Positions 2,614 to 42,598 of a DNA stretch of 64,000 nt are shown here, piece after piece. Where the stretch lies: assembly GCA_033032865.1 (NCBI GenBank), contig JAWHQI010000201.1, forward strand, positions 4,775,501 through 4,839,500. The letters run 5' to 3'. The translations under genes and the position numbers were made by a program. Source of the DNA: Dactylorhiza incarnata (taxonomy: Eukaryota; Streptophyta; Magnoliopsida; Asparagales; Orchidaceae). Numbering within the stretch: position 1 is the stretch's first letter; each line of letters opens with the position of its first letter. The notes under the pieces were generated by a model. That model searched no databases, was not told the DNA's origin, and saw only the letters and a program-made list of their open reading frames with translations.

Positions 2614-2695
2614 TAGGATGATCATAATAATGCTAACACCTTGATCAAAAGATCTCCTCACTCATATTTTAATATTCTAAAATTATTTTTAGAAA

Positions 2696-3376: not shown

Positions 3377-3377
3377 G

Positions 3378-6013: not shown

Positions 6014-7924
6014 ATGGTGCACCATGATCTCGCTTTCTACGAGGGGCCGGAAATTAGTAGACCACCAGTATTTACCGAGTCCGATTATAACTATTGGAGA
6101 ACTAGGATGCAGTGTTTTCTAATGAAGTTAGATATAGAAGTTTGGGCAATGATGGAACAATGATATTCTCATCCTACAGTTGTAGTAGGAGAAGCAACTC
6201 TTGAAAAACCCAAAGATAAGTGGGATGATCAAGATGAACTTAAATGTAAAAATAATGCTAAAGCAATGAACGTATTATTTTATGCTTTAGATAGAACTGA
6301 ATTTAATCATGTTTGTGCTTGTGAGACTGCATATGATATATGGAATTTATTAGAAATTACTCATGAGGGTAATTCACAACTGAAGGATTCAAAGATTTTC
6401 AAACTGGAATCGTAGTACAAAAACATCCGCATGGAACCAGACGAGGATATTTACGTCATGTACATAAGATTCACAAAGATCATAAACGCTTCAAAAATCC
6501 TCAGAAAGACCTTCTTAGACGGAGACCTAGTGAGGAAGATTCTCAGAGCCCTCCCACCAAAAATCAATCCAAAGGTGACAGCCAAATCAGAGTCATATGA
6601 TCTATGGCAACTACAAATGGAGAGACTCATTGGGAATCTAAAAACCCATGAGGTAGAACTCAAAATTCAACATGAAGAGTACCACACAGAGCTAAAGAAG
6701 AAGGCCTTGGCTCTAAAATCCAAGAAGGAGGCCAATGATGATGAAGATGATTAAGAAGGCCTCTCAGTGAAGAATTTTAAGAAATTCATGAAGAATCTAT
6801 AGTAAAGAAACTCTTTTCAGAAATACATCATTAAAGATGCAAAAAGGAAGTGATCATCCTCTACAAAAGAAAAAGGTAGCGACGTCGATGATGAGTGGCC
6901 AACGCCGGAGTGCTACCACTGCAAAAAGACTGGACACATCCGGATCCAGTGCCAAAATATCTGAAAGAGCGAAATAAAAGGAGGCACAAAGGAAATGAAA
7001 AGAAGAAGGTTCCAAAGGTGGGTACATGGGATGACTCCTCCCCCGAGGAATCAAGTGGATCTTGTTCAAGCGACGATGAAGAGGCAAACATGTGCCTTAA
7101 TGAGCAGGAGCAAAGATCTCACCAATGACGAAAGCAGTGTCCAAAGCGACACTGAGGTACCTTCTCCTACTTATGATGATCTATATGATGAATTTCTTCA
7201 AACTTTCAAATATTTTGAAAAAGGTCTTAAGGATATTGATCTCTTAAAAACTGAAAATAAGATTCTATTAAAATAAAATAAGAAAATAACTAAAGAAATA
7301 AAAGATTTTGGAAAAGAAAAGTTAGATGGCCAAGATAGTAATCTTTCCTTGGCAAAAAATCAAGAACTTGAATAAACTCTCTCTAAGGCTCTCTTGGAAC
7401 GTAAATCTCTTGTAAAAGAATAACGGGACTTAGAGAGAAAGCTAAAAACCTCTCTTCTCCAAATAGAAGATGGAACGAAATCATTTATAAACCGATGTGT
7501 GACGATAGTTACCGAAAACACCTCTTTGAAAGCCTGAATTCATGATCTAAATATGGATATAGAAAATTTTAGTGTTGGCAAAAAATAATTGGACATGATT
7601 TTGGTCAACCAGTGCCATGGTTCTGCAATGTTTGGGCTGGGGTATGGTTCGGGAGGCTACCACCCGACATTAACTCCTAACACTAGCGTTAGCCATATTT
7701 CTTGAAAACAAAATTCTTCTTATAAAAATTCATCTATCATCCCTACTACATCCCTTCCTACCAGCAAGAGTCAACAAAATTCTTGGAGAAAGGTCTCAAC
7801 CACAGAGTCTTGTAGGAAGAAAGAAAATCGCACTTTAAAGAAAATCTGGGCACCTAAGGTTTCCACTTATACTATGGGAGGAACCTCCTGGGTATCCATA
7901 TCTTTACTCCCATCCTCTTTTTAG
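6014..7924 (+). pseudogene. gag: A-family Sirevirus gag, decayed
   Basis: Gag builds the virus-like particle and packages the RNA. The ATG at 6014 opens MVHHDLAFYEG. Recognisable are DYNYW, the capsid-like region around LLEITHEG and LVRKILRALPPK (6430-6750), and a CCHC zinc knuckle CYHCKKTGHIRIQC near 6910-6952. A linker follows that contains TAACACTAGCGTTAG (about 7680), the word also found in the A LTR. Compared with C, the second knuckle has been lost. Several stops and frameshifts make it non-functional. A TAG at 7922-7924 separates it from pol in the same frame. Confidence 0.9.
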
Positions 7925-10900
7925 GTGTGTTGGCAGGCTAAGGATAAGGAAGACATATGGTACTTGGACTCAGGATCCTCCAAGCACATGATGGGTGATA
8001 AAGTAAAGTTCCTTAGCCTCATGATAAAGAATGGAGGTATGGTGACTTTTGGTGATAATGGCAAGGGAAGGATCACAGGCATTGGTATAGTGGGTAATGA
8101 CCCTTTTTCTATTTCAAAAGTTTTATATGTTGAAGGTTTGAAACACAATATAATATCTATTAGTCAATTATGTGATAAATGTTTAAATGTCTTATTTGAA
8201 TCTTCTACAAACATTTGCAAAATTATAAATCTCAAAATAAATGAAGTTCAACTCACCACACCAAGAGCTCATAATGTTTACATGATTGCTTTTCATGATC
8301 TTTCACATTCATCTATCAAATGTATTATTTCAAAAAAAAGATGAAGTGTAGAATTATGACATAGGCGTCTTGGTCACACTAGCACTAAACTTATTTTAAA
8401 ACTAGCCAAAGATAAATTAATTAGATGATTACCTATGCTTAATGGAAATTTATCTTCACTTTGCCTACTTAGCCAAAAAGGAAAATTTTCTAGATCATCT
8501 ATTAAAAGTAAAAAGGAAATTTGTACTACTAGACCCTTACAATTAATTCATATGTATCTTCTTGGTCCAGTAAGCACCGCTAGGTAGAAAATATCTTTAT
8601 GCTATTTTGATGATTTTTGTAGATTTTGTTGGACAATCTTTCTTACTTCAAAATCTGATGTTTTTGTGAATTTTCAAAATTATGTAAACGTATTCAAAAT
8701 GAACTTGATCTAAAAATTCAATGAATTCACTCGGATCATGGAGGAGAATTCGAAAATGAAAAATTTTCCACTTTTTGTAGTGATCTAGGAATTAAGCATA
8801 AATTTTTCGCTCTACGCACTCCACAATAAAATGGTGTTGTGGAGAGAAAAAAATAGAACTTTCAAGAATTAGCACACACATCATGTTATGTTATTAATCG
8901 TGCCATGCTTCGACCCTTCTAAAAATTAACCCCTTATGAATTGTATTTTCAAAAGAAGCATAATGTATCTTATTTTCGTGTATTTAGTTGCAAATGCTTT
9001 TTATTAAACACAAATGATTAATTATGAAAATTTGATGAAAAATGTGTTGAAAGAATTTTTATTAGGTATTCTTCAACTAGTAGAGCCTATAGAGTGCAAA
9101 AGAACTAAAATAGTTGAAGAATCTATTCATATTAGATTTTATGAGCTTGTTTCGTGTGTACAGAAATTTATTCTGGGAAATGAAGAGGAACCCCTCTGCC
9201 TATTAAAGCCTGAGGATGATGAGTCACGAGAAGAGGAGAACAAGAAAGAGGAGAACAAGGAAGAGGAGGAAAAGCAAGAGGAGTATGTGCTTCCTAACAT
9301 GTTAATGTTCACAAAACATCATCCGAGGGAGCTTGTCATTAGAGAGCCATCAAAAGGGGTAACGACTCGCTCTTCCCTGCATGAATCTTTTTCAAACCTT
9401 TGCTTTGTTTCCAAAATCGAACCAAAAAAATAATTCAACCGCATTAAATGATGAATTTCAGTATCTAGCTATGAATGAAGAATTAGAACAATTTGAACAT
9501 TATAAGGTTTGAAAGCTTGTAGAAAGACCATCTAATCACCCGATAGTAGGGGTAAAATGGACTTTCAAAAATAAATTAGATGGTTAATCTAGGATTACAT
9601 GGAACAAAGCTCGCTTGGTAGCACAAGGGTGTTCTCAAATCGAGGGGGTAGATTTTGGTAAAACATTTGCACCTGTTGCTCGCTTAGAATCCGTTAGAAT
9701 TTGTCTTGCCTTATCGAGTTTCAAAAGATTTGAATTGTTTCAAATGGATGTTAAAAGTGCTTTTTAATGGGATTAATAAGGAAGAGGTTTTTGTTCAATC
9801 CCTCGATTTAATAAATGAAAAATTTACAAATCATGTATTCAAACTAGATAAAGCGCTTTATGGTTTAAAACAAGTGCCACATGTTTAGTATTAAAAATTA
9901 ACCTCATTTTTATTAAAGCCAAGTTATGCAATGTGATGAGTCGATAACATACTCTTCATTAAGCATGCTAATAATGATTTGATCATATTACAAATTTATG
10001 TAGATGACATAATATTTGGAGCCACTAATGAAGAATTGTGTAATGAAGTTGTACTAGTAATGCAAAAAAAATTTGAAATGAGCTTGGTAGGAGAACTCAC
10101 ATATTTTCTAGGTTTTCAAATTAAACAAAGAAATGATGGAATATTTGTTAGTCAATCTAAATATGTTCATGAGATGTTGAAAAGATTTGGATTTGAAAAT
10201 TAAAACAAGCCTCTACTCCTATGAGTGCATCTCTAAAATTAGGAAAAGATGAAGCCAGAATCTCTATTGATCAAACATTACATAGAGGAATGATAGGTTC
10301 ATTATTGTATCTAATTGCTTCTAGACCCGATATTATGTTTGTCGTTCACTTATGTGGTAGATTTCAAGCTAATCCTAAAGAATCTCATTTAAAAGCAGTT
10401 AAATGAATCATTAGATATTTGATCGGATTATCTAGTCTAGGCATATGGTATTCTTATAAAGATTCCTTTATATTGCATGGTTATTTCGACTCAGATTATG
10501 CGAGTTGTCACTAGATCGTAAGAGCACACGTGGCACATGTCACTTCTTAGGCCCGTCACTTGTAGCATGGTCGAGTAGGAAACAGGATTTTGTTTCCCTC
10601 TCCACCACTGATGCTGAATATGTCACATTTGGAAGTTGTTGTGCACAAGCCCTTTGAATGAGTCAAACACCAGAAGACTTTGGGGTTCATCTAAATAATA
10701 TTGAATTAAAATGTGATAACAAAAGCGCAATCGATCTAACCAACAATCTCATTCATCATTCAAGGTCTAAACATATAGATGTGCGTCATCACTTCATTAA
10801 GGATCACATTAAGAAAGAACATGTGAGACTTAGTTTCATAGGCACGGAGTCCCACCTTACGGACATCTTTACCAAACCACTCACCGATGTTCGTTTCAGC

Positions 10901-10942
10901 ATGCTTAGGTTAGAATTTGGTATCTTAGATATATCCCATTAA
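7925..10942 (+). pseudogene. pol: A-family copia pol (protease, integrase, RT, RNase H), decayed
   Basis: Order is copia type: protease (DSGSSKHM near 7968), GAG-pre-integrase (RRLGH near 8365), integrase core with many stops (8560-8900), RT with the YVDD box near 10000, and RNase H (TTDAEY near 10605, CDNKSAIDLTNN near 10710, RSKHIDVRHHF near 10770), ending at 10942. Open stretches of 60-140 codons alternate with stops and frameshifts. Best relative in the window is element C, whose reading is much cleaner. It cannot encode a working enzyme. Confidence 0.9.
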
Positions 10943-13900
10943 AACCTATAAAAACCTAATTCTCCTCAAAACAAATTTCTCTGGTATTTCCTCATGCTTG
11001 ATGTGTCTCATCGTATCTTCAAATGCCTGAATCTTTAGTCATCAAAAATCTTCAAATTTGAATTATAGTGCTAACACACCGCGTTGTGTCTAACGCATGG
11101 CGTTAGAATGTTTTCCTGAAATTGGTACTTTCTTTCTACCTTTCTCTTTGTATGTCTCTTTATATCTCTACAAGCATCTTATTTTTATATTAATTTCTCG
11201 AAAAACCAAAACACAATAAAAATTTAAAAACCATTTTTAAACAAACAAAATGATGCTTACAGAGCCTTCTAATCATCTCTATAATGTCTAGAATTTCTAC
11301 ACTGAGAAGGCCTCTATATAATAACTCTAAATCAAAGATTTTTTTCCAAAATACAAGAAATCATGTACTATTTTGGCATTAAGAGTCAACTCCCATCGTT
11401 AGTGGTCAACGCCAGCATTATGAGTCAACGCTCGACGTTAGGTCTTTTTGCTCCAATTTCCATTTTGTTACTTTTTAAAAATCTCCGGTAGTTTCTCTTG
11501 CATATTTTTATGTTTGTTTTTCTTTTCTGCTAGTTTTCTATTTTTCAATTAATTTTTGTTTTTATTTATTAAAAAAATCCACAAAGATTCAAATAATAAA
11601 AAACTTTCAAAAATATGATTTGTCATGCCTTTGCCATGCCTTTGTTGTATTATTTGACTATAGGATTTCACATGAGCAAAAATCTTGTTATTTTCTTCTC
11701 CAATGGTCAAAATTGACTAAGCATACTCTTAAAGATTCTCTTCAATGTTTAATTTTAATTTCAAGTTTCCTAAATATTATTTTGATGCGTTGACCTTGAT
11801 CTTGTTATGTCCAATGAAATAGACTATAAAAAATTGTGGGCGATTGCCTAGCAAGCCTTTATGTATGAGTAATTTTGTAAGTTAAATAATGATTCATTCA
11901 CTCACTCTTTTAGTAATCTACATGTGATCATAATCTTAGTCTTGCATGATTGTGTAGTGTAATTGTTTTACATGTTAAGTTGTATGCCTATATTACATAT
12001 ACCATCTTTTCAAAAATAAAATTCTTAAACATATTGAAGTGTGATTTCAAATTTTTTGTTGTTTGCAAAAAACAAGTAAATTCAGAGATCTTTGTCCTAA
12101 GTTAAAAAATATGAATAAAATGATAAAGATAACTCTACCAAGCACTACACAGCCTCTTGATAAATCTTAATGAGCATTGTGAGATTGAGCACATTGGCAA
12201 GAATTATAAAGTGTCTTGTATAAACACATCTTTTTTTTCACTTCTATTTGTACATCGGATCACCCAACACCAACAACACCCAAGCCTTTATCCCACCATA
12301 GTGGGGTCGGCTATATGGATCCTCTATTGCTATTGAGCCCTATCTTTAATCATAATCTCACAAATTCCTAAGTACATCATGTATTTCCTTATAGTTTCAT
12401 TCCAAGTCTTTTCTGGTCTACCCCTCCCCCGTTTAACATGTCTAGTGACTAAACTCTCATAATGCCTAATAGTTGCCTCTAATGGTCTCCTATATACATG
12501 TCCGGACCATCTTAAACGATCTTATCGCATCTTCTCTACATTTTGCTCCACTCCTGTCTTATCCCTGATACATTCATTCTTAATTTTATCTAGTCTCGTG
12601 TAACCACACATCCACCTATCCATTCTAATCTCCGCAACTCCCATTTTTTGCTCATGTACACCATTCATTGCCCAACAGTCAGAACCATAGAGCATTGCTG
12701 GTCTAATTGTAGTTCGATAAAACTTTCCTTTATGTTTTAATGGTACTTTACGATCACATAAGATCCTAGACGCGCCTCTCCACTTCAACCAACCTACTTG
12801 GATTCTATGTATCACATCTTTATCTACACCTCCATCCTTTTGAATTATCGATACCAAATATTTAAAGCACTCACTGCAGGAAATATCTTGGTCACCCAAT
12901 TAAATGACGGAGTCATCCGACCTTCTAGCCCTACTAAACTTAAGCTCTATATACTCCGTCTTTGTCCTGCTCAACCTTAAACCCTTCTTTTCTAAAGTGT
13001 CTCGCCAAGATTCAAGTTTCGCATTTACACACTCACACGTCTCATCGACCAAAACAATATCATATGCAAATAATATTGTTTTGGAGATGATATTGTTTTG
13101 GTCGATCAGACGCGTGAGGGTATAAACACAAAACTTGAATCTTGACAAGTCACTTTAGAAAAGAGGGGTTTTAGGTTGAGCAGGACAAAGATGGGGTATA
13201 TAGAGCTTAAATTTTGAATGTACACAGGATCACCCAAAATAAAAAAAAATAAAAAAATGCTTATATGATCCCCAAGCAATACTTCGCTCCCTGATAAGTC
13301 ATAATGCACATTGTGTGGGCGAAGCACCTTGGTAGTTGTGTTTTTATGTACTTTGAAATAAACATTCTAGAGTTGGTGTGTGAAAATAATTCTAAGACTC
13401 TCTTAATATTGTTTTACTGCTTCATTACATATGTCATGTGTTTTGATTATATCACTTTTATGCTCATATCAAAACAATATTTGCACACATCATTATCTTT
13501 CATAAAGCGTCAACTCATGAGAATTGGATTCTAATGCATATCTACATAATTATCTAAATAGCATAAGTTATTCACTAGACTACAATGCATGATCTCTATA
13601 ATATTTTCTTTGCTTTAAATGCAAATTAATTTCATTGTCACTATTATCTTTTTGAATATGACAAATCATGCTTGCCATTAGTTGTTGAAAATTTTTCAAG
13701 GTTAATGCTCCTTACATGTGAAAATTCTTACAAATTGTTTGCACTTGTTTTTTTTTTCAAAATCAAAACTAAAAATAAAAAATTTCTCTAACAATTAAAA
13801 TGATTATCTTGGTTACTTTGTTTTCCGAACTATTGATATGATCATGTATTTTTACCATGCTTTATCATGTTTATCTCAAGTCTTAATTTTGAAGTTTTTT

Positions 13901-14420: not shown

Positions 14421-15604
14421 TGTTGGAACACGTTTTTCCACATCCCTTTGGTTTGACAAAAATAAATCCTACTTGTATTTGATCAAGTTTGTCATTGTGT
14501 TTTAGGTATGCAGGATTGAACAAGGATGGCAATAGGATGCTATATTTTGGTCCGAACTAGCTCAATGTGCTAAAAGAAAAGAATATGGTCTAATTCCAGG
14601 CATTAGAGCCAATACATATGTTGACCCTCGATCCCGCCAATGTGAAATTGCTATGGAGGGTAGCTGCCGTGATTGTGGGAGCAGTTTTGGAATGACTTGG
14701 TCTAACGTTAGGAGTTAGCCTTAACACTAGCGTTAGAGTTGCCTAAATAAGAGCTTTCCAAACATGCAATATCTCCTTCCCAGAATGAGAATACATGCCA
14801 TGAATCATTACTAAATTGATTCAACGTCTGGCCTTAAGTCTAACGCCAACATTAGTTTCCTCTCCAATAAAAGGGTGGCTTTCGTTCTTTTCAACATTAC
14901 AACTTAAGGAGCCCTAATCCACCTCTCTGAAATCTCTTTGAGGGCTGTATTTTCATACCACTAAAGTTCTCCCATTCAAATTCCAGAGAAGGAATCAAAG
15001 GAGGATCGAATCAACACAAACTCAGTGCGAAGAACACACACTTCGACTTCAATGATCTTCAACGGTTCTTCGTCGTCTTTTTTAGATTTCTTCATAGGAA
15101 GTTTTCAATTTAAATTTCATATTTTGTAATACCTTTTTATCTTTGTGATCGTATAGTGGAGAATTCGTCGCGGTTGTTGATGACTAGGTCCATGTGTGAC
15201 TTAGGTGGAATTCACCGCGTGTGTTGGTGACTAGGTCTAAGGCTTAGGTCTATGGGGTGCTCGAGTCCTTTCTGGGAATAGAGAGACTAGAGAGGCTTGA
15301 GGTCGAATCAGGGAATAGATCGGCTAAAGCCAACCAGTTATTAGGGAGATGAGTCGATATAGAAAATAAAAAGAGTTTTTCATATTCATGCCTCAATTTC
15401 TAGCATTGCAGAAATCCTGTCTTGTAATCAATCAATAATAATCTTGTCTCTATTTGTTTAATAATATTGATTTGGTTTTATTTTCTAGCAATTTACTTTT
15501 GATCTAATCTCTTTCTTAGAAAATATCAAAAAAATACTTTAAAATAAAGATTTCTAAAACCCTTACTCACCCCGCTCCCTCTAAGGGCACCATAAGATCC
15601 AACA
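14421..15604 (+). mobile_element. A 3' LTR
   Basis: TGTTGGAACACG to AAGATCCAACA, 1184 bases. U3 holds dyads on the theme TAACGTTAG / AACACTAGCGTTAG (about 14698-14850). U5 holds CGCGGTTGTTGATGACTAGG-type repeats (about 15165-15245). The Sirevirus tract is decayed to CACCCCGCTCCCTCTAAG. Downstream DNA is a gypsy fragment, the likely older host of A. Confidence 0.92.
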
Positions 15605-29302: not shown

Positions 29303-29315
29303 TGTTGGATCGTAT
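29303..29315 (-). other. C terminus: LTR 3' end fused to RT coding sequence
   Basis: On the minus strand RT coding sequence (CCTCGTGCTTG) runs into ATACGATCCAACA, which matches a Sirevirus LTR terminus (compare CATAAGATCCAACA at 15591-15604). The RT sequence at this point reads TGGTACGATCG (33280), so TACGATC is shared: a seven-base microhomology at the switch. Confidence 0.7.
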
Positions 29316-31375
29316 CAAGCACGAGGCGCTTGTTTTAATCCATAAAGTGCTTTATCTAATTTATAAACATAATTTGGATATTTCTCATTTATAAAGCCAG
29401 GGGGTTGTTCTACATAAACTTCTTCTTTTATATACCCGTTTAAAAATGCGGTTTTGACATCCATTTGATATAATTTAAATCTCTTAAAATAAGCAAATGC
29501 AAGAAATATTCTAACCGCTTCTAATCTTGCTACGGGTGCAAAAGTTTCATCAAAATCTACCCCTTCAATTTGTGCATAACCTTTTGCAACTAATCTGGCT
29601 TTATTTCTAACAATTCTAGATTCATTATCCATTTTATTCTTAAAAATCCACTTAACACCAACTACAGGACGGTTTTTGGGTCGTTCTACAAGATTCCAAA
29701 CCTTATTACGTTCAAATTGATTAAGTTCTTCATTCATAGCTAAAAACCAAAATTCATCATTTAAAGCGGTGGAAACATCTTTTTGTTCTATTTCAGAAAC
29801 AAAACAAAGGTTTGAAAATAAAACATGTAGTGATGAACGAGTACTAACCCCTTTTTGCGGATCTCCAATGATAAGCTCCTTTGGATGATCCTTTGAGAAT
29901 CTTAATTCACTTGGAGGCACATATCCTTCTCTTTCTTCTTCTTCTCTATCTTCTTCTCCTCTTTCTTCTTCTCTTTCTTCTCCTTTTTCTTCTTCATTTT
30001 CTCCAAGTTCTTCTTCATCATTCTCCATCGTGGGAAGGAGTTCATCTTCTTTTCCTGTAATTTTCTTTTCTACACATGAAGCAAACTCATCAAACCTAAC
30101 ATGAATAGATTCTTCAACTATTTTTGTTCTTTTATTAAAAATTCTATAAGCTTTACTAGTTGAAGAATAGCCAATAAAAATACCTTCATCACATTTTTCA
30201 TCAAAATTTCCTAAGGAATCTTTAGAATTCAAAATAAAACATTTACAACCAAAAACTTTGAAATAAGAAACATTTGGTTGTTTACTAAATATTAATTCAT
30301 AAGGAGTTAATTTTAAAATAGGGCGAAGCATTACTCTATTAATTACATAACATGCCGTGCTAACCGCTTCAGCCCAAAAAGATTTTGGTAATTTAAATTC
30401 AGATAACATTGTACGGGCTAACTCTTGAAGAGTTCTATTTTTCCTTTCCACTACACCATTTTGCTGTGGTGTGCGTGGAGCGGAAAATTCATGTTTAATT
30501 CCTGACACCGTACAAAAAGAAATAAACTTTTCATTTTCAAATTCTCCTCCATGATCCGATCGTATGCGTTTAATTTTTAACTCCAATTCATTTTGAATAC
30601 GCAAACATAATTTTGAAAATTCTGAAAATGCTTCGGATTTAGAGGTTAGAAATAAAGTCCAACAAAAACGAGAATAATCATCAATCAAAACAAATGTGTA
30701 TTTTCTACCTCATAAGCTAGAAATTCCAATTGGCCCAAATAAGTCCATATGTATTAATTGAAGTGGCCTACTGGTAGAAATAATGTTTTTACTTTTGAAA
30801 GATGATTTTGAAAATTTTCCTTTTTGGCAAGGCACACATAGTGAAGAAGATAAATTTCCATTTAGCAAAGGTAAACCTTTAATTAATTTATCTTTTGAAA
30901 GTTTTGAAATTAACTTGGCACTAGCATGTCCAAGTCGCCTATGCCATAAATCTAATTCATCATTTTTTGATAGAAAACATTTCAAAGTAGAATTTGAAAA
31001 ATCAAGAAATTTAATCATATATACACTATGACATCTAGGTGCGGTAAAAACAATTTCATTTGTTTTGGAATTAATAATTTTGCACAAATTTGTAGAAGAT
31101 TCAAATAAAACATTCAAACCCTTATCACATAATTGACTAATGGAAATCAAATTATGCTTTAATCCTTCTACAAATAAAACATTTGAAATTGAAAAATTTT
31201 CGTTACCCACAACACCGATGCCGATGATTTTTCCTTTTCCATTGTCACCGAATGTAACAACTCCTCCTTTCTTCATCTCCAGGCTAAGGAACTTCTCTTT
31301 ATTGCCCGTCATGTGCTTTGAACAACCCGAGTCCAAGTACCACACGTCTTCTTTGTCCTTAGCATGCCAACACAC
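29316..31375 (-). pseudogene. pol: C pol part 1: protease, integrase, RT N-terminal half
   Basis: After a TAG at 31376-31378 in the gag frame, GTG TGT TGG starts the protease region (DSGCSKHMTGN), then GAG-pre-integrase (LWHRRLGH), zinc finger, MDLFGPIG, a single stop near 30707, integrase core ([34 protein letters not shown]) and RT up to [10 protein letters not shown] at 29315, where the sequence is cut. Frames are otherwise open (221 and 457 codons), so C was young when it was rearranged. The missing RT half lies at 33280-34338. Confidence 0.92.
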
Positions 31376-33275
31376 CTAGAAAGAAGAGGTGAGTAAAGAT
31401 CTGGTTACCCAAGTGGTTCCACCCATAGTATAGGTAGAAGCCTTAGGCACCCAGATTTGTTTAATTTTGCTTTTTCCTTCCTTCCAGCAAGAGTCCGTAG
31501 TGTGACCAAATCTATTGCATTTGGCACAAGTAATGTATTTAGAAGAGTATAACTTTTCTGGACTTTTACTGGATGAGGATGCTGTATTTGATATTTCATT
31601 AATTTTAGAATTTTTAAAAGTGAATTTTCTGGACTTTTCACTGTCGCCGGCGACAGTGGTTGTCGCCGGGCGACAGCTTCCAGATGTGTATCCGAGCCCA
31701 AACCTTCCAGATCCATGGCGTTGGTATCCTAAGATCATATCCAGTGATCTTCGGCCCATTCCAAATTTTTTCATGGCTAGTGTTAAGTCATGAATCTGGT
31801 GTCTCATTTTTGTATTCTCGGATACTAGATTTACGCATCTCCGTTCAAAAGATTTCTTTCCCTCATGGACTATGGAAATTGAAGATTTCAGATCTCTCTC
31901 TAAAATCTCATTCTTTTTAGTAAGTACTTTTATTGTAGAATGAGATTTGGAAAGAGATTCTTCAAGTTCCTTAATTCTTCCCAAAAAGTGATCACACTCT
32001 TGGCAAGAAATATCTCTTTTTCCAATAGTCTTAATTTCATTTAACAATTTTTTGTTTTCTTTAAGTAAAATTCCATTTTCAGATTTTAGAAGATCATTAT
32101 CTTTTAAACTTTTTTCAAAAAATTTGCAAGTCTTTAAAAATTCAGAAAACAATTCATCATAGGTTGGAGGAGTTACCTCAGTGTCGCTTTGGACACAGCA
32201 TTCGTCATCAGATATGACGCTCTTTCCCATTAAGCATATGTTGGCCTCCTCCTCTTTACTTGAGTCGGAACTGCTTGTATCCTCAGAAGTAGTATCATCC
32301 CAGGTTTCCGCCATCAATACCTTCTTCGACCCTTTGTGCTTCTTTTCTTTAAGTTCTTTCAAGTACTTTGGACACTTGCTTCGAATGTGTCCTAACTTCT
32401 TGCAGTGATAGCACTCCGGTGGCGGTCTCTCTTCCTCCTCATCGCCCTCCTTTCCTTTTTTCTTCCTAAAGGTCTCCTTCTTAAAATACTTCTTAAACGA
32501 ATTCCTTCTCTCCGGATTTTTCATAAATTTTCTAAATTTTTTAACAAATAAACTTTCCTCATCTTCTTCATCCTCCTCAGAATCACTAGTTTCTTCCTTC
32601 TTTGATCTTAGAGCCAATCCCTTCTTCCTTGGCTCCATATACTCTTGTTGTTGAATTTTTAATTCAACTTCATGAGTTTTCAAGTTCCCAATAAGGCTCT
32701 CCAATTGTAAGGTCTTAAGATCATGTGACTCGGAAATTGCAGTCACTTTAGGATTGAACTTCGGGGGAAGTGATCTTAAGATTTTCCTTACCAAATCTCC
32801 ATTTGAGAACACCTTTCCTAGCACCTTTGAGTCGTTCACGATTTTTGTAAACCGTGTGTACATTGTATCAATCTCTTCATCTACCTCCATTTTGAACCTT
32901 TCAAATTCAGATTCCAGTTGAAATAGCTTTGAGTCCTTTACCTGCGAAGTACCTTCATGAGTGATTTCTAATAAATTCCAAATTTCAAATGCAGAATTAC
33001 AAGCACAAACTCTATTAAATTCAGTGCGATCTAGTGCGCAAAATAAAGCATTCATGGCTTTTGCATTGTTCTTACATCTTAATTTATCATTATCATCCCA
33101 CTTATCTTTGGGCTTATCCATAGTTACATCTCCTACAACAATTGTTGGAGAAGTGTAACTAGATTCTACCATATTCCAGACTTCTCTATCTAGCGCAATT
33201 AGAAAACAACGCATACGTGTTTTCCAATAATTATAGTCTGTGCCCGTAAAAAGTGGTGGCCTACTAATTCCTCTA
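31376..33275 (-). CDS. gag: C gag, almost intact
   Basis: Open from the ATG at 33214 (612 codons); homologous reading continues upstream to the inversion joint at about 33275 (ISRPPLFTGTDYNYW), so the true start has been lost. Domains: capsid-like N-terminal part, knuckle CYHCKKLGHIRSKC (about residue 268), acidic stretch, coiled coil (residues about 350-480), a G/R-rich linker whose DNA holds two C-family dyads (31638-31680), second knuckle CAKCNRFGHTTDSC (about residue 575) and a TAG at the protease joint. The two knuckles separated by a coiled coil are as in A and D. Confidence 0.88.
31638..31680. repeat. C-family dyads inside gag
   Basis: CACTGTCGCCGGCGACAGTG and TTGTCGCCGGGCGACAG lie in the coding linker before the second zinc knuckle. 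They match the LTR word CTGTCGCCCAGGCGACAG. They encode part of a GSCRPATTTVAGDSE stretch. Confidence 0.85.
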
Positions 33276-33279
33276 AAAA

Positions 33280-34338
33280 GTGGTACGATCGATTAACTCA
33301 ATATTTGTTAAAGCACGATTATAAAATAGGAAGTGCTGATTCTACACTCTTCATTAAGAAAATTGATCATGATTTAGTTATTTTACAAATTTATGTTGAT
33401 GATATTATTTTTGGAGCCACTAATGAAGAGTTGTGTAATGAAGTAGTTGAAATTTTGAAAAATGAATTTGAAATGAGTATGGTTGGAGAACTTTCATACT
33501 TTTTAGGTTTTCAAATTACACAAAAACATGATGGTATTTTTATATGTCAAACCAAATATATTCATGATATGTTAAAAAGATTTGGATTTGAAAATCTTAA
33601 GCATGCAAACACTCCTATGAGTACTTCACTAAAATTAGGAAAAGATGAAAGTGGTGTTTCAATTGAACAAACTTTTTATAGAAGTATGATAGGGTCTTTA
33701 TTGTATTTAACCGCATCTAGACCTGATATTATGTTTGCCGTTTGTTTATGTGCTAGATTTCAAGCTAATCCTAAAGAGTCACATTTAAAAGCGGTGAAAC
33801 GTATCTTTAGATATCTCATAGGCACATCAAAATTAGGTTTATGGTATCCTCATAATGATTCTTTTATTTTACATGGTTTTTTGGATTTGGATTATGCGGG
33901 ATGTTCCTTAGATAGGAAAAGCACTAGTGGCACTTGTCACTTTATCGGCCCTTCACTTATTTCATGGTCGAGTAGGAAACAGAATTCTGTTGCCCTCTCA
34001 ACTACCGAGGCCGAATATATTGCACTAGGTAGTTGTTGTGCCAAGCTCTTTGGATGTCACAAACATTAGAAGATTTTGGCATGCAACAAAGTAGTGTAGA
34101 ATTAAAGTGTGACAATAAAAGTGCTATAGACTTAACTAACAATCCCGTATTACATTCTAGATCTAAGCATATAGATGTCCGACATCATTTTATAAGGGAT
34201 CATATTAAGAAGGGTAATATAAAAATCAACTTTATAGGCACAGAAAATCAAATAGCAGATATATTCACTAAGCCGTTACCGGATTCCCGTTTTTCTATGC
34301 TTAGGCTAGAATTGGGAATTCTAGACATTTCACAATGA
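33280..34338 (+). pseudogene. pol: C pol part 2: RT C-terminal half and RNase H (inverted relative to part 1)
   Basis: Starts KWYDRLTQYLL and continues through [15 protein letters not shown] (RT catalytic box), [61 protein letters not shown]; a one-base loss near 34055 shifts the frame, then TLEDFGM, CDNKSAIDLTNN, RSKHIDVRHHFIRDH and the end at 34338. Apart from inversion and this shift it is intact. At the left joint AAAAAGTGGT occurs twice, about 25 bases apart (33249 and 33274). Confidence 0.9.
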
Positions 34339-34633
34339 ATATATCACTATTTAAAGCCTATAAAATTAAAAAAAAAATTATTATCACAAAACATAAACAA
34401 TGTACAAAGAAAAAGCTAAAATCTTAAAAATCAAAACATAAAATTTCAAAAGACTTAACAAAAATTCAACATCATTAATATTACATCAATATTGTTCAAA
34501 TAAAAATAGTAGAAACAACTTAAGGATCAAGTTCATTAAACAAAAGCAGAAATCTAAAGAAGTTCACTGTCGCCCAGGCGACAGTGGATGTCGGAAATTT
34601 CCGACATCGCCCAGCAGCAGCAGCAACATAAAA
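34339..34633 (+). other. C spacer between pol and antisense gene
   Basis: AT-rich and non-coding, with a pair of C-family dyads at 34568-34607 (CTGTCGCCCAGGCGACAG and TGTCGGAAATTTCCGACA) just beyond the stop of the antisense gene. Confidence 0.75.
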
Positions 34634-35749
34634 CTACTCTGAATCTTCATAACCAGCCCCGCTGCTCTCTGGACAATCTTCTGGAGGTCGTCGTCTCACG
34701 ACTTTACCACGGCGAGTCCGCCTCACCGATTCGCGTGGCGGTTCTTCGTCCGGAACTTGCCATTCGGCCTCTTCCTCCGGAGTTGGCTTTAACTTCAGAC
34801 CCTTGACGAGAAACTTCATAAATTTCTGCATTCGACTACGGTCCTTCTTCACTTCCCTCTTGTGATCCTCTAATGAATCACGCAAATCATCAATGGACTC
34901 TCGTAGTGATCCTTCCCTAGAAATGGTCGGCTCTCTAATCTCAATCCCCGGATGAGCTTTTCTATGCGGCTTCTTCACCTTCATTGAACCCGTATAATAT
35001 ATTTCCGGATAACAATCATCCAAATAAGCACCTTGCACTATCCATCCATACTTCTTATAGAGTACACGCTGTATTACCGCCCCCATTGGCAGCGTATGAA
35101 CCTTCACCCATCTTGGATGCTTTAATCTATACGCATACCTAATCTGGGAGAGTATGAAGTCCGCCACATCAAAAAGCTCATCCTCCATAATATAGTATGT
35201 AAAGAGGGTCAACTGAGCCGTAATACTTCTTGTGTCTCCACTCTTCAACATCACTGAATTCCTTAATATATCTTGGACTAAGAAAGCATCCGGAGTAAGT
35301 GACGTAACTTCAGTGGTAAGAGTCTTCTTTTGATTCCCATGTAAACTCATGTTTACAAGGGTCCAATCTCTATCCTTTCGATAATTCTCCACTATATCAG
35401 GCATATTCTCACTCATCACTAGTCTGAATTCCTCTTGTAGATCAACATGTGTTATTTCCACATGTTGACCTTGGATCCTTGATCTCACTCCTCCATCCAA
35501 TTCAGTGAAATTTGGGTCTTCCAAATGGTTATAAAATTCACGAATGAAAAAGGAAGAAAACCCCTCTGGTGTGATTATTGAAATTATACCTGCGTTCGCA
35601 AGCCGATCATAGATATGATCGTGCTTTGGCGACTCAAATTCCACATACTTCGCTATTCCAACAATAGCCTTCTCCACCCCAGGAAAAACTTGATATGAAC
35701 TACGTGCATCTTCCGAAGTACTCTTTCGAGCTTTGGAACTGGAAGCCAT
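34634..35749 (-). CDS. Antisense accessory protein of C
   Basis: An open frame of about 371 codons from MASSSKARKSTSED; an upstream in-frame codon at 35785 would add 12 residues but lies before a good splice acceptor, so I prefer 35749. N-terminal domain with FYNHLEDPNF, SRIQGQHVEITHVDLQEEF and HPRWVKVHTLPMGAVIQRVL, resembling the putative plant transposon (Transposase_32-type) domain; then PGIEIREP (shared with G), a coiled coil (RESIDDLRDSLEDHKREV) and a basic C-terminus (RRTRRGKVVRRR). It is antisense to gag-pol yet related to the sense accessory genes of B and G. A nuclear role is plausible from the basic tail. Intact, with no stops. Confidence 0.75.
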   Translation of the reverse strand: MASSSKARKSTSEDARSSYQVFPGVEKAIVGIAKYVEFESPKHDHIYDRLANAGIISIITPEGFSSFFIREFYNHLEDPNFTELDGGVRSRIQGQHVEITHVDLQEEFRLVMSENMPDIVENYRKDRDWTLVNMSLHGNQKKTLTTEVTSLTPDAFLVQDILRNSVMLKSGDTRSITAQLTLFTYYIMEDELFDVADFILSQIRYAYRLKHPRWVKVHTLPMGAVIQRVLYKKYGWIVQGAYLDDCYPEIYYTGSMKVKKPHRKAHPGIEIREPTISREGSLRESIDDLRDSLEDHKREVKKDRSRMQKFMKFLVKGLKLKPTPEEEAEWQVPDEEPPRESVRRTRRGKVVRRRPPEDCPESSGAGYEDSE

Positions 35750-35750
35750 T

Positions 35751-36271
35751 CTGCAAATAACATACAAAAATTTTTGATTAAACATGGTATCATATTGTGC
35801 ACTGGCACACTGTCGCCCAGGCGACAGTGACTGTCGGAAATTTCCGACAGCTCACCAAGTGTTTTCTCTCAAAATTTTTTTATCCTTCCAGATCTACTCA
35901 AAATCAATGTTATTTCAACATCACGTTTTAAAAAAAATATGTTTTTCAAATCAACATATTCTACAAATCCTTTACTATTCATCATCTTCAACCCTCTACA
36001 CTAAACTAGATCTACAAAAACCCTTTAGAGAATGAACCAATGGAACCCTTCATCACAAAAATCACAAAATCAAAAATTTTAACAAAGATCCAACAAGATC
36101 CACTTGTTTTAAACTAGATCTACATTTTATTTTTTTTAAAAAAACTAAACTTCAAAAACCTACATTCATCAAAAATCAACATGAAAACTACATTTTCCTT
36201 CTTCTCTACTTTCAAAATAAAAATATCCAAAAAAAAATAGAGTCAAAACCATAAAAAGCAAACTCCCATAC
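35751..36271 (-). other. Probable 5'-UTR intron of C antisense gene
   Basis: Minus-strand donor TAAG|GTATGG at 36271 and acceptor TTATTTGCAG at 35751, one base before the ATG. The 521-nt segment is AT-rich and contains a dyad pair at 35808-35851. An exon of roughly 70 bases would join it to the TATA box at 36368. Confidence 0.5.
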
Positions 36272-36367
36272 CTTAGATCTTGAGATGTCGCCGATTTCCG
36301 ACAGCCCTCTCTCTCTCAACAGTCCAGAAAAATGAAGCACAATAGGGTTTGACTCGGTCTGATGCCC

Positions 36368-36375
36368 TATTTATA
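36368..36375 (-). promoter_or_regulatory. TATA box of C antisense gene, with dyad module
   Basis: Minus-strand TATAAATA. Upstream of it stand the dyads GGCGACAG-ending word2 (36383-36400) after 7 bases and word1 TGTCGGAAAATTCCGACA (36405-36422) after 4 more. The LTR promoter at 38218-38273 has the same order with spacings of 3 and 8 bases. Confidence 0.75.
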
Positions 36376-36429
36376 CTTTTGGCTGTCGCCCAGGCGACAG
36401 TGGGTGTCGGAATTTTCCGACAGCTCCAA

Positions 36430-37470
36430 ATGTACTAAAAAATCAATGTTGGGTCCCTTTGATGATCTACAATAGTTATATGTCATTATTAATGCTTCAC
36501 CTTATGACTTGATGACAAACCATGTGCTATTTATTTAAAAAAATGACTTACATGTTTATATGATTTCATTTCCAAGCTATCATCGTATTGACACTTCTAC
36601 TTAGTTGTTTAGACCATTGGAAATTATTTTCGCATGTCTCTAAGTATGATAAATTGTTTATCTATCATAATGAACTATCACGTTCACTTCTTTTGATCAA
36701 TACATATGTGTACTTCTTTAATATATACATGGATCATATTTGCTTTAACATAATAAAATAACACTTCTTAAATACAACTTTCACCCTTGATTTGTTAGCA
36801 CAACAAAATATACACCATCTTTTGCGATTCAAGTGAATTCGGAGATCCTTGGTCATTTAAAAAAAAAATATGTCAATATATCAAAATTAAGATATCACAA
36901 CATCTGTGATAAAAAAATTTAAAATAAAGACAAGGATACTCCACCAAGCACTACTTACCCTCCTGATAAGTCTTAATGAGCATTGTGAGGTTAAGCACCT
37001 TGGACAGAATTGTAAAGTGTCTTGTGCAAAAGAAACATGGTTTTCTATTCATCTTGTGCTATATCTTCAAAGTCAAAGTTGCCTTTATGTGCTTTTATTA
37101 TGTTCTACATTTCAATGATCATGTAAATTAAATAGCTTCATATGTTTGATCAAAGTATCACATGTACACATCATTATGTTAAATAAATATTCATCTCATG
37201 AGAATTGGACCGAAAATATTCGATAATTCTATACTCTATTGTGTCTTTCTATGATACTTTCAAATGATTTTACTCATGTTTAAGTTATTTTCTTTCATTA
37301 CTTCATATGGCTATACCGTCACTTCATGAGTTTATTCATACTATGGCATATTCCTATTATTTCATGGACTTCAATCATTTCCACAAAAAAAGTGCTTCCG
37401 CTTACTCTTTCTTTCTATATCCTATGCCCATTCCATCAAGAACTACTCTTTTATCTAATATTAACTTTTG
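36430..37470 (+). other. C 3' untranslated region, no gene seen
   Basis: AT-rich. The block 36938-37025 (CAAGCACTAC, CTGATAAGTCTTAATGAGC, TTAAGCACCTTGG) is conserved in A near 12150 and 13272, suggesting a structured or functional 3' element. Nothing coding. Confidence 0.6.
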
Positions 37471-37477
37471 CTAATAT

Positions 37478-37780
37478 CAAAAGGGGGAGAATTAAAAGTA
37501 TAAAAAGAACAATCACAAATCTATTACACCTAAATATCCCACCTACACAATACATCATATATTTAGGGGGAGCATATATTTAGGGGGAGCATATATGTAG
37601 GGGGAGCATATATGTAGGGGGAGCTTTCATTTAGGGGGAGCTTTCATCTAAAGGTAGATCATTTATTTTCAAGAAATATATATCATGTTAATTTTGTGCA
37701 CACACCAAAGGTTAAAATCAACAATCTAAATAGACATGATTTCTTTTTATACGGATTTTTTATTATCAAAAGGGGGAGAT
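37478..37780 (+). repeat. Polypurine-tract array of C
   Basis: CAAAAGGGGGAGAA at about 37479, then five TTAGGGGGAGC(A/T) or GTAGGGGGAGC units (37560-37645), and the final CAAAAGGGGGAGAT (37767-37780) abutting the LTR. Functional primer is the last; the others are the Sirevirus repeats. Confidence 0.88.
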
Positions 37781-37929
37781 TGTTGGAGCATGCGTTTCGC
37801 ACTCCTCCGGTTTGATAATAACAAAGTCCCGTTTGTATTTGATTCTATTTTTATCAATGGTGTGCAGATAACAGGTATGAGATGTTCAAATTTCTACTGG
37901 AGCTAAAATTGAATGTGGGAAAATTTCAC

Positions 37930-38258
37930 TGTCGGAAAATTCCGACATCCACTGTCGCCCAGGCGACAGCAGAGAAGTTACAACTACTTCCCTCCACGGC
38001 AGATCGACGAAAGGCAGTTTTTGCGCTGTCGGAAATCCGACATCGATGTCGCCCAGGCGACAGCTCGGCGGTTACAACAACTGCCCATGACTCCACCCAC
38101 GACCGACAGTGTTGCGCTGTCGGAAATCCGACATCGATGTCGCCCAGGCGACAGCTCGGCGGTTACAACAACTGCCAACGACTCCACCCACGACGGCACT
38201 CCAGCGGCAGTTTAGCGCTGTCGGAAAATTCCGACAGTCACTGTCGCCCAGGCGACAG
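37930..38258 (+). repeat. C-family U3 dyad array
   Basis: Alternating word1 (TGTCGGAAATCCGACA, CTGTCGGAAAATTCCGACAG) and word2 (TGTCGCCCAGGCGACAG), four pairs, separated by GCGGTTACAACAACTGCC and CGACTCCACCCACGAC filler. Some filler-and-word units are duplicated (about 38028-38090 and 38112-38180). Confidence 0.92.
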
Positions 38259-38266
38259 TGAATTTC

Positions 38267-38273
38267 TATAAAT
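38267..38273 (+). promoter_or_regulatory. TATA box of C LTR
   Basis: TATAAAT, 8 bases after the last word2 of the array. A start near 38300 is expected. The inverted LTR has the same site on the minus strand at 39664-39670. Confidence 0.7.
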
Positions 38274-38991
38274 TGGTTCCTTTGGTTCGTGCATTAAAAG
38301 CTTTGGAGAATTCCAGTCCCTTCCTGAGTGCATACGAACCAGAGAGCTCCAGAACCTCCTCAACTCCCATTTGTGCAAAGAAGGATTGAAGATTGAAGAC
38401 GAGATCGGGCGCGCTTCTACATCATCAATCGTCTCGAGGCTTCAATAATTCGTTCAGAGATCTGATTTTCTAGGGAGTTGTTCTTTTCATACTGTATTTT
38501 CATTCACATATTTTTCATTTTGTATTGGTAGAGAAATCATCGTCTTGCGTGCGACGTCTAAGTCCTTGCGCGGCTTAGGGGAAAATCGCTTCCTTGTGCG
38601 GAGCGTCCAAGTCCTTGCGTGGCTTGGTGGGAAATCGTGGCCTTGTGTGCTACGTCTAGATCTTGGGAAGATCTAGAGGATAGGCTTGGGCTTGGTCTTG
38701 GGAGAGACAAGCGATAGCCTTCCGATCCTTGGGAGAAGGATTGGTAAACCAAAATTGTAGAATTTTTAGTAAATATAATTGTGCCTTGATCTTAAGCATT
38801 GTTAAGATCATTTTTATTGTACTCAAATTTCATGATTAATATAATTATGTCTCTTTCTTTAATTATATATTTGATGGCATAATCTTTATCTTAGAAATTT
38901 GTGTTTTGGTTTAATACTAAAATTGCATTGGTTTGAAAGTGTTTAGAAGTAATTTTTTAGTAAAGTAAAATCTCTTTAAAATTTTACTAAG

Positions 38992-40156
38992 TAAACACTT
39001 TCAAACCAATGCAATTTTAGTATTAAACCAAAACACAAATTTCTAAGATAAAGATTATGCCATCAAATATATAATTAAAGAAAGAGACATAATTATATTA
39101 ATCATGAAATTTGAGTATAATAAAAATGATCTTAACAATGCTTAAGATCAAGGCACAATTATATTTACTAAAAATTCTACAATTTTGGTTTACCAATCCT
39201 TCTCCCAAGGATCGGAAGGCTATCGCTTGTCTCTCCCAAGACCAAGCCCAAGCCTATCCTCTAGATCTTCCCAAGATCTAGACGTAGCACACAAGGCCAC
39301 GATTTCCCACCAAGCCACGCAAGGACTTGGACGCTCCGCACAAGGAAGCGATTTTCCCCTAAGCCGCGCAAGGACTTAGACGCCGCACGCAAGACGACGA
39401 TTTCTCTACCAATACAAAATGAAAAATATGTGAATGAAAATACAGTATGAAAAGAACAACTCCCTAGAAAATCAGATCTCTGAACGGATTGTTGAAGCCT
39501 CGAGATGATTGATGATGTAGAAGCGCGCCCGATCTCGTCTTCAATCTTCAATCCTTCTTTGCACAAATGGGAGTTGAGGAGGTTCTGGAGCTCTCTGGTT
39601 CGTATGCACTCAGGAAGGGACTAGAATTCTCCAAAGCTTTTAATGCACGAACTAAAGGAACCAATTTATAGAAATTCACTGTCGCCTGGGCGACAGTGAC
39701 TGTCGGAATTTTCCGACAGCGCTAAACTGCCGCTGGAGTGCCGTCGTGGGTGGAGTCGTGGGCAGTTGTTCTAACCGCCGAGCTGTCCCCTGGGCGACAT
39801 CGATGTCGGATTTCCGACAGCGCAACACTGCCGGTCGTGGGTGGAGTCGTGGGCAGTTGTTGTAACCGCTGAGCTGTCGCCTGGGCGACATCGATGTCGG
39901 ATTTCCGACAGCGCAAATACTGCCTTTCGTCGATCTGCCGTGGAGGGAAGTAGTTGTAACTTCTCTGCTGTCGCCCGGGCGACAGTGGCTGTCGGAATTT
40001 TCCGACAGTGAAATTTTCCCACATTCAATTTTAGCTCCAGTAGAAATTTGAACATCTCATACCTGTTATCTGCACACCATTGATAAAAATAGAATCAAAT
40101 ACAAACGGGACTTTGTTATTATCAAACCGGAGGAGTGCGAAACGCATGCTCCAACA
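38992..40156 (-). mobile_element. C LTR, inverted copy
   Basis: Base x pairs with 77937-x in 37781-38945, around a 46-base spacer (38946-38991). About ten differences were seen in the first 600 bases, mostly CG/TG or CG/CA changes, so the two LTRs have diverged by roughly 1-2 percent and this is not a read copied twice. Its outer end CCAACA touches the target duplication TTTGG. Confidence 0.92.
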
Positions 40157-40161
40157 TTTGG

Positions 40162-42598
40162 CACATTGGGGTTGTGCCAACAATCAATTGCAAAGTGTCC
40201 TACTTTGCCACAGCACCAACACTCATATATATTATATATCCTCTTCTGAACAGTCCCAGAAGATGAAGCTTCCTGTTTCTGTTTAGTAGAGGATACAACT
40301 GATGTTTTCTTTGTTTTATCAGTAAAGGCCTGCCTTTTTACCTTTCTATAATCAGTCAAGGCAGCCAGTTTTTGTTTGACATAAACACCCTAGCTTGGCA
40401 GCTAAACATGTGTGGATGGCAGCAGAAACAGGGCTTTTTGGCTTGGTTATAGGACAGTTAACAGCCATGGACTTTGCTGAACAATGTTTAGAATTAACAG
40501 CCTTGGTTATCTTGAGTGAAGGGGCTGAGGTTCCAAAAACAAAAGGTCCATGATGGGCCATTTGAATTTCCTCATGCAGAGCCTTGAAGGCACTCAAGCC
40601 TAACTCCTTTCTATATCCATAGCTGTGAGCATTCTTGCTCAAGTTATTGGATCTTCCATTTAATAAGTGACCATGAACACTTTCTTGGTCATACTTGTTT
40701 GAGGGCATCAAGACTTTCACAAAGGAGGTCTTAGATTCTTTTGAATCCTTGACCTTTCCATTAATGTTGCTAGTAGATGCCTCATTTTTGAAACCAATAC
40801 CTCTCTTGTCATGAGGTTTGAAGGTGTCAATAATAGGCAGCACTGTCTTGGGCTTGGAGAACTTGGCCACTAGCATCTTCTCCATGAGGTGCTTTTCTTC
40901 AAGATCCTTAATGATCTTGTTCTTGTGGTTTATGGTGCCCACATGGATGATTGACATTCCCCTTAGCTTGCCAATCTCCTTGCTCATTAGAGCTAGCTGG
41001 GTAGCATGCTCAATGCATTCAAATTTTGATTGCCTTAGGGAAGCAATTTCTTGTGCTTGCCTCTTGGCTAGCATTTTGCTCTTTTTCAGAGCTTCCAGGA
41101 GTGCACCATACTTATCAATCAATTTATTGACATCCTCCTCAGAATCTGATCCACTGCCAACTTTAGATGGAGGAGATTCAGATTCTGGACCTGTTTCATA
41201 ATCAGAAGAAGAAGAAATGCAGTGTATCAATACCTGCTCATGTTCTGAGTTGCTGTGGCTGTCCTCATCTTCAGTTATAGCCATCAGCCCATGGTCATCA
41301 AGAGTGACCTCATCCTCCTCTTCATCACTATCTGAATGTGATAGAGGGGCCCTGATTCCTATCCTGGTAGCAGGATAGTCTTCTTCCTCCTGATCAGCAA
41401 ACAGCCACAAGTAGGCTTCCTCCTCTCCATCTGAATCTGAAGATGAAGATTCAGATTCACTCCAGCTCTTGCCTTTCTTAGCTAGGAAGGATTTTTCTCC
41501 CTTCCTCTTCTTCTGGTGATGAGCCTTCTTGTCACTTCTTTCCTTTCTTTTGACTGGACAGTCAGCAATGACATGTCCAGGCTTACTACAGCAATAGCAA
41601 ATTATGTTAGTTGAAACATGTTTACTAGATTTAGAATCATACCTGTCCCCATTGGGATGTTGCCTCTCAGATCTGTAATGATCCTTCTTGGGATGAGAAG
41701 AGGAGGAAGGTTTGTTCTTCCATTGTTTCCTATTGATCATCTTCTTGAACTGCCTTGTAAAGGCAGCAAATTCCTCATCAGAAGAGGAGCTGTCTGATTT
41801 ACAGCTCTCAGATTTCTCAGATTCAGCAGCCTTTCTTGGAGGTGACTGCACTCTAACCTTGTTCTTCTTAGATCTTTCAGCTTTGAGAGTAATAGATCTC
41901 TCCCTTGTGTGAGCCATGGAGGAAGAGTCCTCCTCCTTTCTTGCAGACAACTGCATCTCATATGAGAGCAGTTTCCCAAACAGTGTATGGGTGGGGGTTT
42001 CTCCAAGTCTTTCCCCTTCCCTGATTGCACATATTTTAGTGTCCCATTCTCTAGTTAAAGATCTAAGGAACTTGTCATTGAGTTCATAATCTGTGAACAC
42101 CCTTCCATAGGTTCTTAGTTCATTTACAATCCTAAAGAACCTTTCAAAGCATATAGAGATATTCTCCTGGCTCAGCTGTCTAAAGGATTCATACTCTTGA
42201 TTGAGGAGTGACTTTCTATCATCCCTCACTTCAGCTGTTCCATCCACATACAAAACCAGTGTGTCCCACATTTCCTTGGCAGTTTGGCAGTGGACCAAGT
42301 TCTGAAAAGTAGTGTCATCAATGGCATTTACTATTATGTTTTGAGCTCTCTTGTACATAGTGTACAATGTTATCTCATCATTGGACAGCTCAGAAAATAC
42401 CTTAAGTACTTTTCTAGTAGGGTCAATAGTGGAGACTTTCTCAAAGGTATAAGGACCATTTTTGATAGTCAAGAAGATCCTTGGGTCTGAGGCTTCCATG
42501 AATAGCCTTACCCTTTGCTTCCATATCCCAAAGTTTTCTTTGGAGCATATGGGCAACTTCATTGACCCCAACTCCTTCTTCATTCCACTGTTGGCCAT
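40162..42598 (-). pseudogene. gag: B gag
   Basis: The ATG at 42598 opens MANSGMKKELGSMKLPICSKENF, and 748 codons are open. Domains: copia Gag core (residues 1-230), S/E-rich linker, knuckle CYCCSKPGHVIADC (about residue 340), acidic region, coiled coil (about 500-590). A one-base shift near 40390 moves the reading to the frame that holds the second knuckle CWCCGKVGHFAIDC (about 40200). Element C is inserted just after it; the last codons and stop lie at about 29205-29297. Unlike A, C and D, its linker has no family dyad. Confidence 0.88.

Follow-up and report, generated by a model that had tools for sequence, protein, structure and literature searches.

Sirevirus long terminal repeats (LTRs) carry palindromic CGG-CCG repeated motifs, which occur again 5' of the ENV gene, as described by Bousios et al. 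2010, who argued for an internal ENV promoter but could not conclusively identify one (PMC2829016). The words that make up these motifs differ between Sirevirus families (Table 3, PMC2829016). In the parts of that paper drawn on here, the linker of ENV-less elements is free of words, and Table 3 includes elements that have LTR words yet no ENV. Is there a comparable arrangement for an extra gene that faces the other way? We consider this question for element C, a retrotransposon in a stretch of 64,000 nucleotides from the genome of the orchid Dactylorhiza incarnata (contig JAWHQI010000201.1, positions 4,775,501 to 4,839,500; hereafter the window, in which coordinates are given). C carries an antisense gene in the region that separates pol from the 3' LTR. 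We propose that this gene probably has its own RNA polymerase II promoter, built from LTR-type boxes plus a TATA sequence, with gag-pol and the antisense gene switched by the same factor.

As with the Sirevirus motifs already described, the boxes of C are palindromic, rich in CG and specific to the family; they stand in U3, ahead of a TATA sequence, and recur 5' of an additional gene that lies after pol and before the 3' LTR. C differs from the Sireviruses of PMC2829016 in that the extra gene is antisense, in that the boxes stand as a pair of two words, and in that a TATA sequence lies 7 bases behind the gene-side pair; the term antisense does not occur in the main text of that paper. Antisense genes are known from other retrotransposons. 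Gene23 of maize Grande is antisense, and a promoter of its own, upstream of it, drives its transcription (PMC7264820), so that Grande and C are alike in having an antisense additional open reading frame, with an own promoter in Grande and a predicted one in C. Grande, however, is a Ty3/gypsy element, LTR boxes shared with the antisense promoter are not mentioned in the portions of PMC7264820 drawn on, and the C protein matches another profile, PF20167, weakly. Retand elements have antisense genes with a TRP28 domain behind pol, for which a regulatory DNA-binding role was suggested (PMC11963269). The place and orientation of the gene are as in C, but Retand is Ty3/gypsy, its protein belongs to family PF04195, and the passages drawn on describe tandem repeats instead of shared palindromic boxes (PMC11963269). 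Among titles and the beginnings of abstracts in a limited collection we found no Sirevirus antisense gene with LTR-type motifs plus a TATA sequence, which does not prove that none has been described. The initial annotation of the window, in which we knew of no such paired promoters in Sireviruses, went too far, since boxes in the LTR and 5' of ENV were already on record (PMC2829016). What C adds is a candidate internal promoter with a TATA sequence before a gene that is reversed.

The two modules are readily compared. In the direction of the antisense gene the candidate promoter of the window copy (L001 among its relatives) reads CTGTCGGAAAATTCCGACAC-CCA-CTGTCGCCTGGGCGACAG-CCAAAAG-TATAAATA, and the LTR reads CTGTCGGAAAATTCCGACAG-TCA-CTGTCGCCCAGGCGACAG-TGAATTTC-TATAAAT. 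On the minus strand, word1 lies at 36404-36423 and agrees with the LTR word (38218-38237, plus strand) at 19 of 20 bases; the palindromic word2 lies at 36383-36400 (LTR, 38241-38258, plus strand); and the TATA sequence TATAAATA lies at 36368-36375 (LTR TATAAAT, 38267-38273, plus strand). The gap between the words is 3 bases at both sites, CCA before the antisense gene and TCA in the LTR, and the TATA sequence follows word2 after 7 bases at the former and 8 at the latter. Word1 has the CGG..CCG form, and word2 has GTCGCC..GGCGAC instead; in the U3 of C these palindromic motifs are followed by TATA, and they are the C family's form of the Sirevirus repeated motif. The initial annotation had the coordinates, letters and order of the words and the TATA positions right, with one adjustment: antisense word1 extends over 36423-36404 with a single mismatch to the LTR word, instead of 36422-36405, which makes the gap 3 and not 4. 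Its description of the antisense module as inverted holds for the order of words and TATA on the minus strand, but the core of word2 does not follow this inversion, as 36383-36400 reads CCCAGG on the plus strand and CCTGGG on the gene's strand. The surroundings of the two copies are indeed unlike, with a likeness of the flanks within chance (upstream p=0.61, downstream p=0.31). The words themselves are far from chance: with both strands searched at up to 3 mismatches and 100 shuffles for comparison, word1 has 14 matches in the window and word2 has 21, against shuffle expectations of 0.00 and 0.01.

Is the arrangement kept among relatives? Our sample consists of close relatives in the same 3.27-Gb genome, picked by likeness of the antisense protein, so that only gene-bearing copies enter the family counts. 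The search scored 111 copies (protein identity of at least 96%) from 9238 first-look candidates. The first 30 of these, the window and 29 relatives, were used with 1.5-kb flanks for the antisense site, and the window and 20 relatives (ranks 2 to 21), refetched with the 3' LTR side, were used for the LTR. Words and spacing, which the initial annotation had proposed to examine in relatives together with the TATA sequence, are strongly preserved. The full antisense module, including its TATAAATA, is present in 29 of 30 copies, with gaps of 3 and 7 in all 29; the LTR module, with both of its words, is present in 20 of 21, with gaps of 3 and 8 in all 20, followed by TATAAAT in 17 and TATAAAA in 3 of the 20 LTR-bearing copies. 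The sole LTR miss, L044, has no LTR match within its fetched piece. The sole antisense miss, L024, has a deletion that runs from promoter word1 to a hybrid word in exon 1 and removes word2 and the TATA sequence. We note that this deletion, some 600-560 bases upstream of the start codon of the antisense gene and with both ends in words, has left a natural promoter-deleted copy. A further difference is seen in three copies, in which the core of LTR word1 is AAAATT (L035, L045 and L046) and the core of antisense word1 of the same copies is AAATTT (L006, L016 and L017).

The relatives fall into two groups by likeness to the window over linker, gene and LTR, 95-98% in 14 of 20 and 91-92% in 6 of 20 (L044 without LTR), and divergence was calculated between 15 and 5 sequences with L044 left out. 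Between these groups the antisense TATA sequence does not differ at all. The antisense promoter words diverge by 3.9%, less than the upstream sequence (8.1%), the intron (15.2%) or the 5' untranslated region (5'UTR), for which 28.4% is a rough value on account of a CT repeat. In the LTR the proximal words differ by 1.4% and the distal words by 1.9%, against 5.4% for U3, 18% for the stretch between the modules and 7.2% for R/U5. A word pair within the intron diverges by 4.3% and the remaining intron by 15.1%, in a separate run that still included L044, of which only regions outside the LTR were used; the same run covered a pair behind the stop codon. Most pairs, but not all, exceed their surroundings in conservation.

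Downstream of the candidate promoter, predicted exon 1, a 5'UTR, would extend over 36272-36341 on the minus strand, its start being set from the distance to the TATA sequence. It would be followed by a 521-nt intron (35751-36271, minus strand) with donor CTAAG/GTATGG at 36272/36271 and acceptor TTGCAG/A at 35751/35750, the slash marking the junction. These splice sites are kept in 30 of 30 copies, with intron lengths of 519-544. The coding sequence (34634-35749, minus strand) begins with ATG at 35749 and has 371 codons and a stop at 34636-34634; the start codon is kept in 29 of 30 copies, L007 having TTG. The ratio of nonsynonymous to synonymous differences (pN/pS) is 0.20 in one group, 0.19 in the other and 0.14 when the two are compared, values biased downward because the copies were chosen by protein likeness. 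Among the 111 scored copies, which are the best matches, 19 have an internal stop and 92 have none. The protein matches PF20167 (Transposase_32) at 29.8 bits (E 6.6e-7) over residues 73-225 of the 383-aa frame, below the curated cut-off of 45, and is likely a distant relative of that family; we do not claim membership. A basic stretch at the C-terminal end, RRTRRGKVVRRRP, is largely conserved in 31 sequences (the window counted twice) and is preceded by a helix predicted in a poor single-sequence structure model, whose mean predicted local distance difference test score (pLDDT) of 37.3 kept it from use in a fold search. The domain search found no DNA-binding domain in the protein. In a public protein collection none of 1368 candidates reached E <=0.001, so a diverse alignment was not to be had.

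The pair of words is not confined to the two promoters, as the initial annotation had it, and occurs seven times in the stretch of element C, four times in the LTR and three times along the antisense unit, where, read along the gene, word1 comes first in all three. Besides the promoter pair, the unit has one pair in the intron (35810-35850, minus strand), with no TATA behind it, and one just past the stop codon (34567-34607, minus strand), each kept in 21 of 21 copies and, by a stricter pattern, in 29 of 30. The three upstream LTR pairs were located by word matches at 37929-37969, 38026-38063 and 38117-38154 (plus strand). A word1/word2 hybrid lies in predicted exon 1 (36284-36305, minus strand; 19 of 21 copies). 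Pair number in the LTR varies among the 20 LTR-bearing copies, with four pairs in 15, three in 4 and five in 1. In words and inner gap, the two promoters agree about as well as other copies of the unit do; what is peculiar to the two is the TATA sequence 7 or 8 bases behind the pair. The gag frame of C also contains, at 31639-31669, the word2-like palindromes CACTGTCGCCGGCGACAGTG and CCGGCGACAGTGGTTGTCGCCGG. An LTR origin of the third antisense pair (34607) was considered and is not claimed, the likeness of its downstream flank to that of the LTR proximal pair (p=0.01) being one of 42 tests.

Element C itself may be classed as a Sirevirus-like Ty1/copia retrotransposon by its domains, its polypurine tract (PPT) copies and its U3 motifs. 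Copia-type domains (Retrotran_gag_2, RVT_2) lie in gag at 31379-33214 and in pol pieces at 29318-30688 and 33305-34066. Sireviruses are recognised by multiple PPTs together with an AT/TG attachment site (PMC2829016), and C has both; the PPT copies before the 3' LTR were read by eye as repeated AGGGGGAG at 37566-37642 and GGGGGAGATTGTT at 37772. The 3' LTR (37785-38995, plus strand), the end of which was set by likeness to relatives, overlaps an inverted LTR behind it. Two LTRs of the C family stand end to end, inverted and 97.6% alike, at 37781-40156, and the outer end of the second abuts, without a PPT, sequence beside another copia gag (40352-42598). In the window copy the gag-pol part (29308-33290) is inverted relative to the pol end and linker, with about 10 bases repeated inverted at its ends. 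Because pol runs uninterrupted across this inversion point in 29 of 29 relatives, it is the window copy of C that has been rearranged.

How do other elements of the window compare? In elements B and F the gene behind pol is in sense orientation, and it is on place and orientation behind pol that our label env-like rests. In B, a cluster of TCTCAGCTGAACCGCTGAGA-type words at 25880-25708 is followed by TATAAATA at 25605-25598, with the start codon at 25500. The words of F are of the TTCGACGAA/TTCGTCGAA kind and lie at about 61130-61000; TATATAA follows at 60905-60899 and the start codon at 60800. Words of this kind also occur in the LTR of F, before TATAAATA at 57461-57454. In the linker of element E, about 390 bases long, there is no listed frame of 100 aa and there are no shared words. 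CG-containing 7-mers common to the gene side and the LTR number 55 for C-C (largest of 300 shuffles, 12), 22 for F-F (19) and 21 for B-E (14), and the largest shuffle is not exceeded for F-E (19, shuffle 19) or A-A (9, shuffle 10). By this measure gene-side and LTR words agree inside C and inside F, and those of B agree with the LTR of E, which is related. The words of element A (10938-11500 and 14422-14880) are different ones, TCTAACGC/GCGTTAGA, present both behind pol and in the LTR. Its linker has 41 genome matches listed, and the A family was tried as a distant relative of the antisense gene. None of eight loci among the 41 (L054-L061, which include the window itself as L054 and its mirror copy as L055) had a convincing protein match, the best at E 0.21, so that A informs on words alone. 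That mirror belongs to a larger feature: positions 1-6739 are a 99.8% inverted repeat of themselves, and the likeness extends past the window, with 10850-11480 having a second, 100% copy on the minus strand at C1132:4770760-4771390. The 1-6739 mirror is either a large palindrome or an assembly artefact.

Could C simply carry an env-like gene turned round? The idea is attractive but unproven. The env-like proteins of B and F are, by sequence comparison, homologous to each other (hhalign probability 99). The antisense protein of C gives hhalign probabilities of 1.7 against B and 0.1 against F, and 2.6 with gypsy PF20167 genes added; C against the C-terminal frame of F gives 14.7 over 19 residues (PGIEIREP), and blastp of C against B gives E 0.76 over residues 2-176. 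A search of the same genome with PF20167 scored 150 places, all above the cut-off, of 8771 candidates. Three of these were fetched (L051-L053; the PF20167 frames of L051 and L053 were scanned again), and there the PF20167 genes stand in sense orientation behind a Ty3/gypsy-type pol. They share with the C gene the Pfam profile and the place behind pol, and differ in being sense (3 of 3) and in scoring far higher, 153.7-162.5 bits against 30. Given such sense genes behind a gypsy pol, what PF20167 (putative plant transposon protein) describes in this genome may for the most part be an env-like gene of retrotransposons.

What, then, do the boxes of C do? A reversed gene with three pairs in its own direction, one of them just before a TATA sequence, fits promoter elements of that gene better than a mark of the place after pol, and sequence conservation supports the antisense promoter of LTR boxes plus TATA suggested by the initial annotation. 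Also in its favour are the unlike flanks of the two promoter copies, the kept splice sites and the low pN/pS, the order of words, TATA and start codon at the sense genes of B and F, the agreement of gene-side with LTR words, and the precedents of the motifs 5' of ENV (PMC2829016) and of Grande (PMC7264820). Transcription would start near 36340 on the minus strand, and the 5'UTR intron would be spliced. Because the boxes are dyad-symmetric, they would be bound by a dimeric factor, and the same dimeric factor would serve the LTR and the antisense promoter; that one factor controls gag-pol and the antisense gene jointly may fairly be inferred. Several observations weigh against an own promoter of this kind. 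The pair also stands in the intron, behind the stop codon and at three LTR sites without such a TATA sequence, so the pair alone makes no promoter. LTR pairs 2 and 3 diverge between the groups by 8.9%, against 5.4% for U3, the post-stop pair by 4.9%, against 4.4% beside it, and the LTR TATA sequence by 7.5%, three copies having TATAAAA. A distance of 7-8 bases is no general rule, since in B and F some 100 bases separate the last word from the TATA sequence. Element A has words behind pol with no recognisable antisense gene. Lastly, sampling close relatives by protein likeness lowers pN/pS.

One might ask whether the factor is the antisense protein itself. This is a special form of the proposal of an own promoter, with the factor named: the gene would encode a family-specific DNA-binding protein that activates or de-silences word-bearing copies, with the logic of VANC, which activates or de-silences VANDAL elements, although VANDAL is a DNA transposon for which binding has been shown (PMC5735166). 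The palindromes would then be an address code, read by a dimeric protein of the extra gene that switches on its own promoter together with the LTR; such a self-encoded regulator, if real, would explain why each family has its own words in both places. Words do vary by family while LTR and gene side agree (the 7-mer comparison; PMC2829016), elements without ENV are described as lacking linker words (PMC2829016), and the largely conserved basic C-terminal stretch follows a predicted helix. Yet the domain search gave no DNA-binding domain, the structure model averages a pLDDT of 37, element A keeps words without the gene, and the LTR words of ENV-less elements (PMC2829016) must have another use or depend on a factor supplied in trans. 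We regard both the VANC-like protein and the address code as rather doubtful. Less probable still is that the boxes act as silencing or RNA structures, the palindromes in sense and antisense RNA forming hairpins or duplexes from which small RNAs would be made. In maize Sireviruses the palindrome-rich parts of the LTR are hotspots for small RNAs (PMC5311732), a double-stranded RNA role for antisense transcripts has been discussed (PMC7264820), and pairs also lie in the intron and the 3' part of the antisense unit; but the TATA boxes, their constant distance and the low pN/pS are left unexplained, and 92 of the 111 copies have no internal stop, even if these are the best matches. A small-RNA process can, of course, run beside a promoter role. 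It is similarly improbable that recombination or gene conversion between palindromes has distributed the pairs and that they are roleless at the antisense gene, where the TATA sequence would be a coincidence. The words do recombine, as the L024 deletion with both ends in words and the varying number of LTR pairs (3, 4 or 5 in 20 copies) indicate. Recombination does not account, however, for constant gaps plus TATA in 29 of 30 copies or for an antisense TATA that is the same between the subfamilies, and the cores AAAATT in the LTR and AAATTT at the antisense gene of the same three copies argue that the two sites are not simply homogenised.

The proposal that the antisense gene has its own promoter bears on the Sirevirus motifs in several ways. 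A reversed gene with co-oriented pairs and a TATA sequence helps to tell whether the motifs mark the gene or the position after pol. The module at the antisense gene narrows the search for transcript starts to a defined position. Are the boxes read by a host factor or by one that the element makes itself? With C, this becomes a directly testable question.
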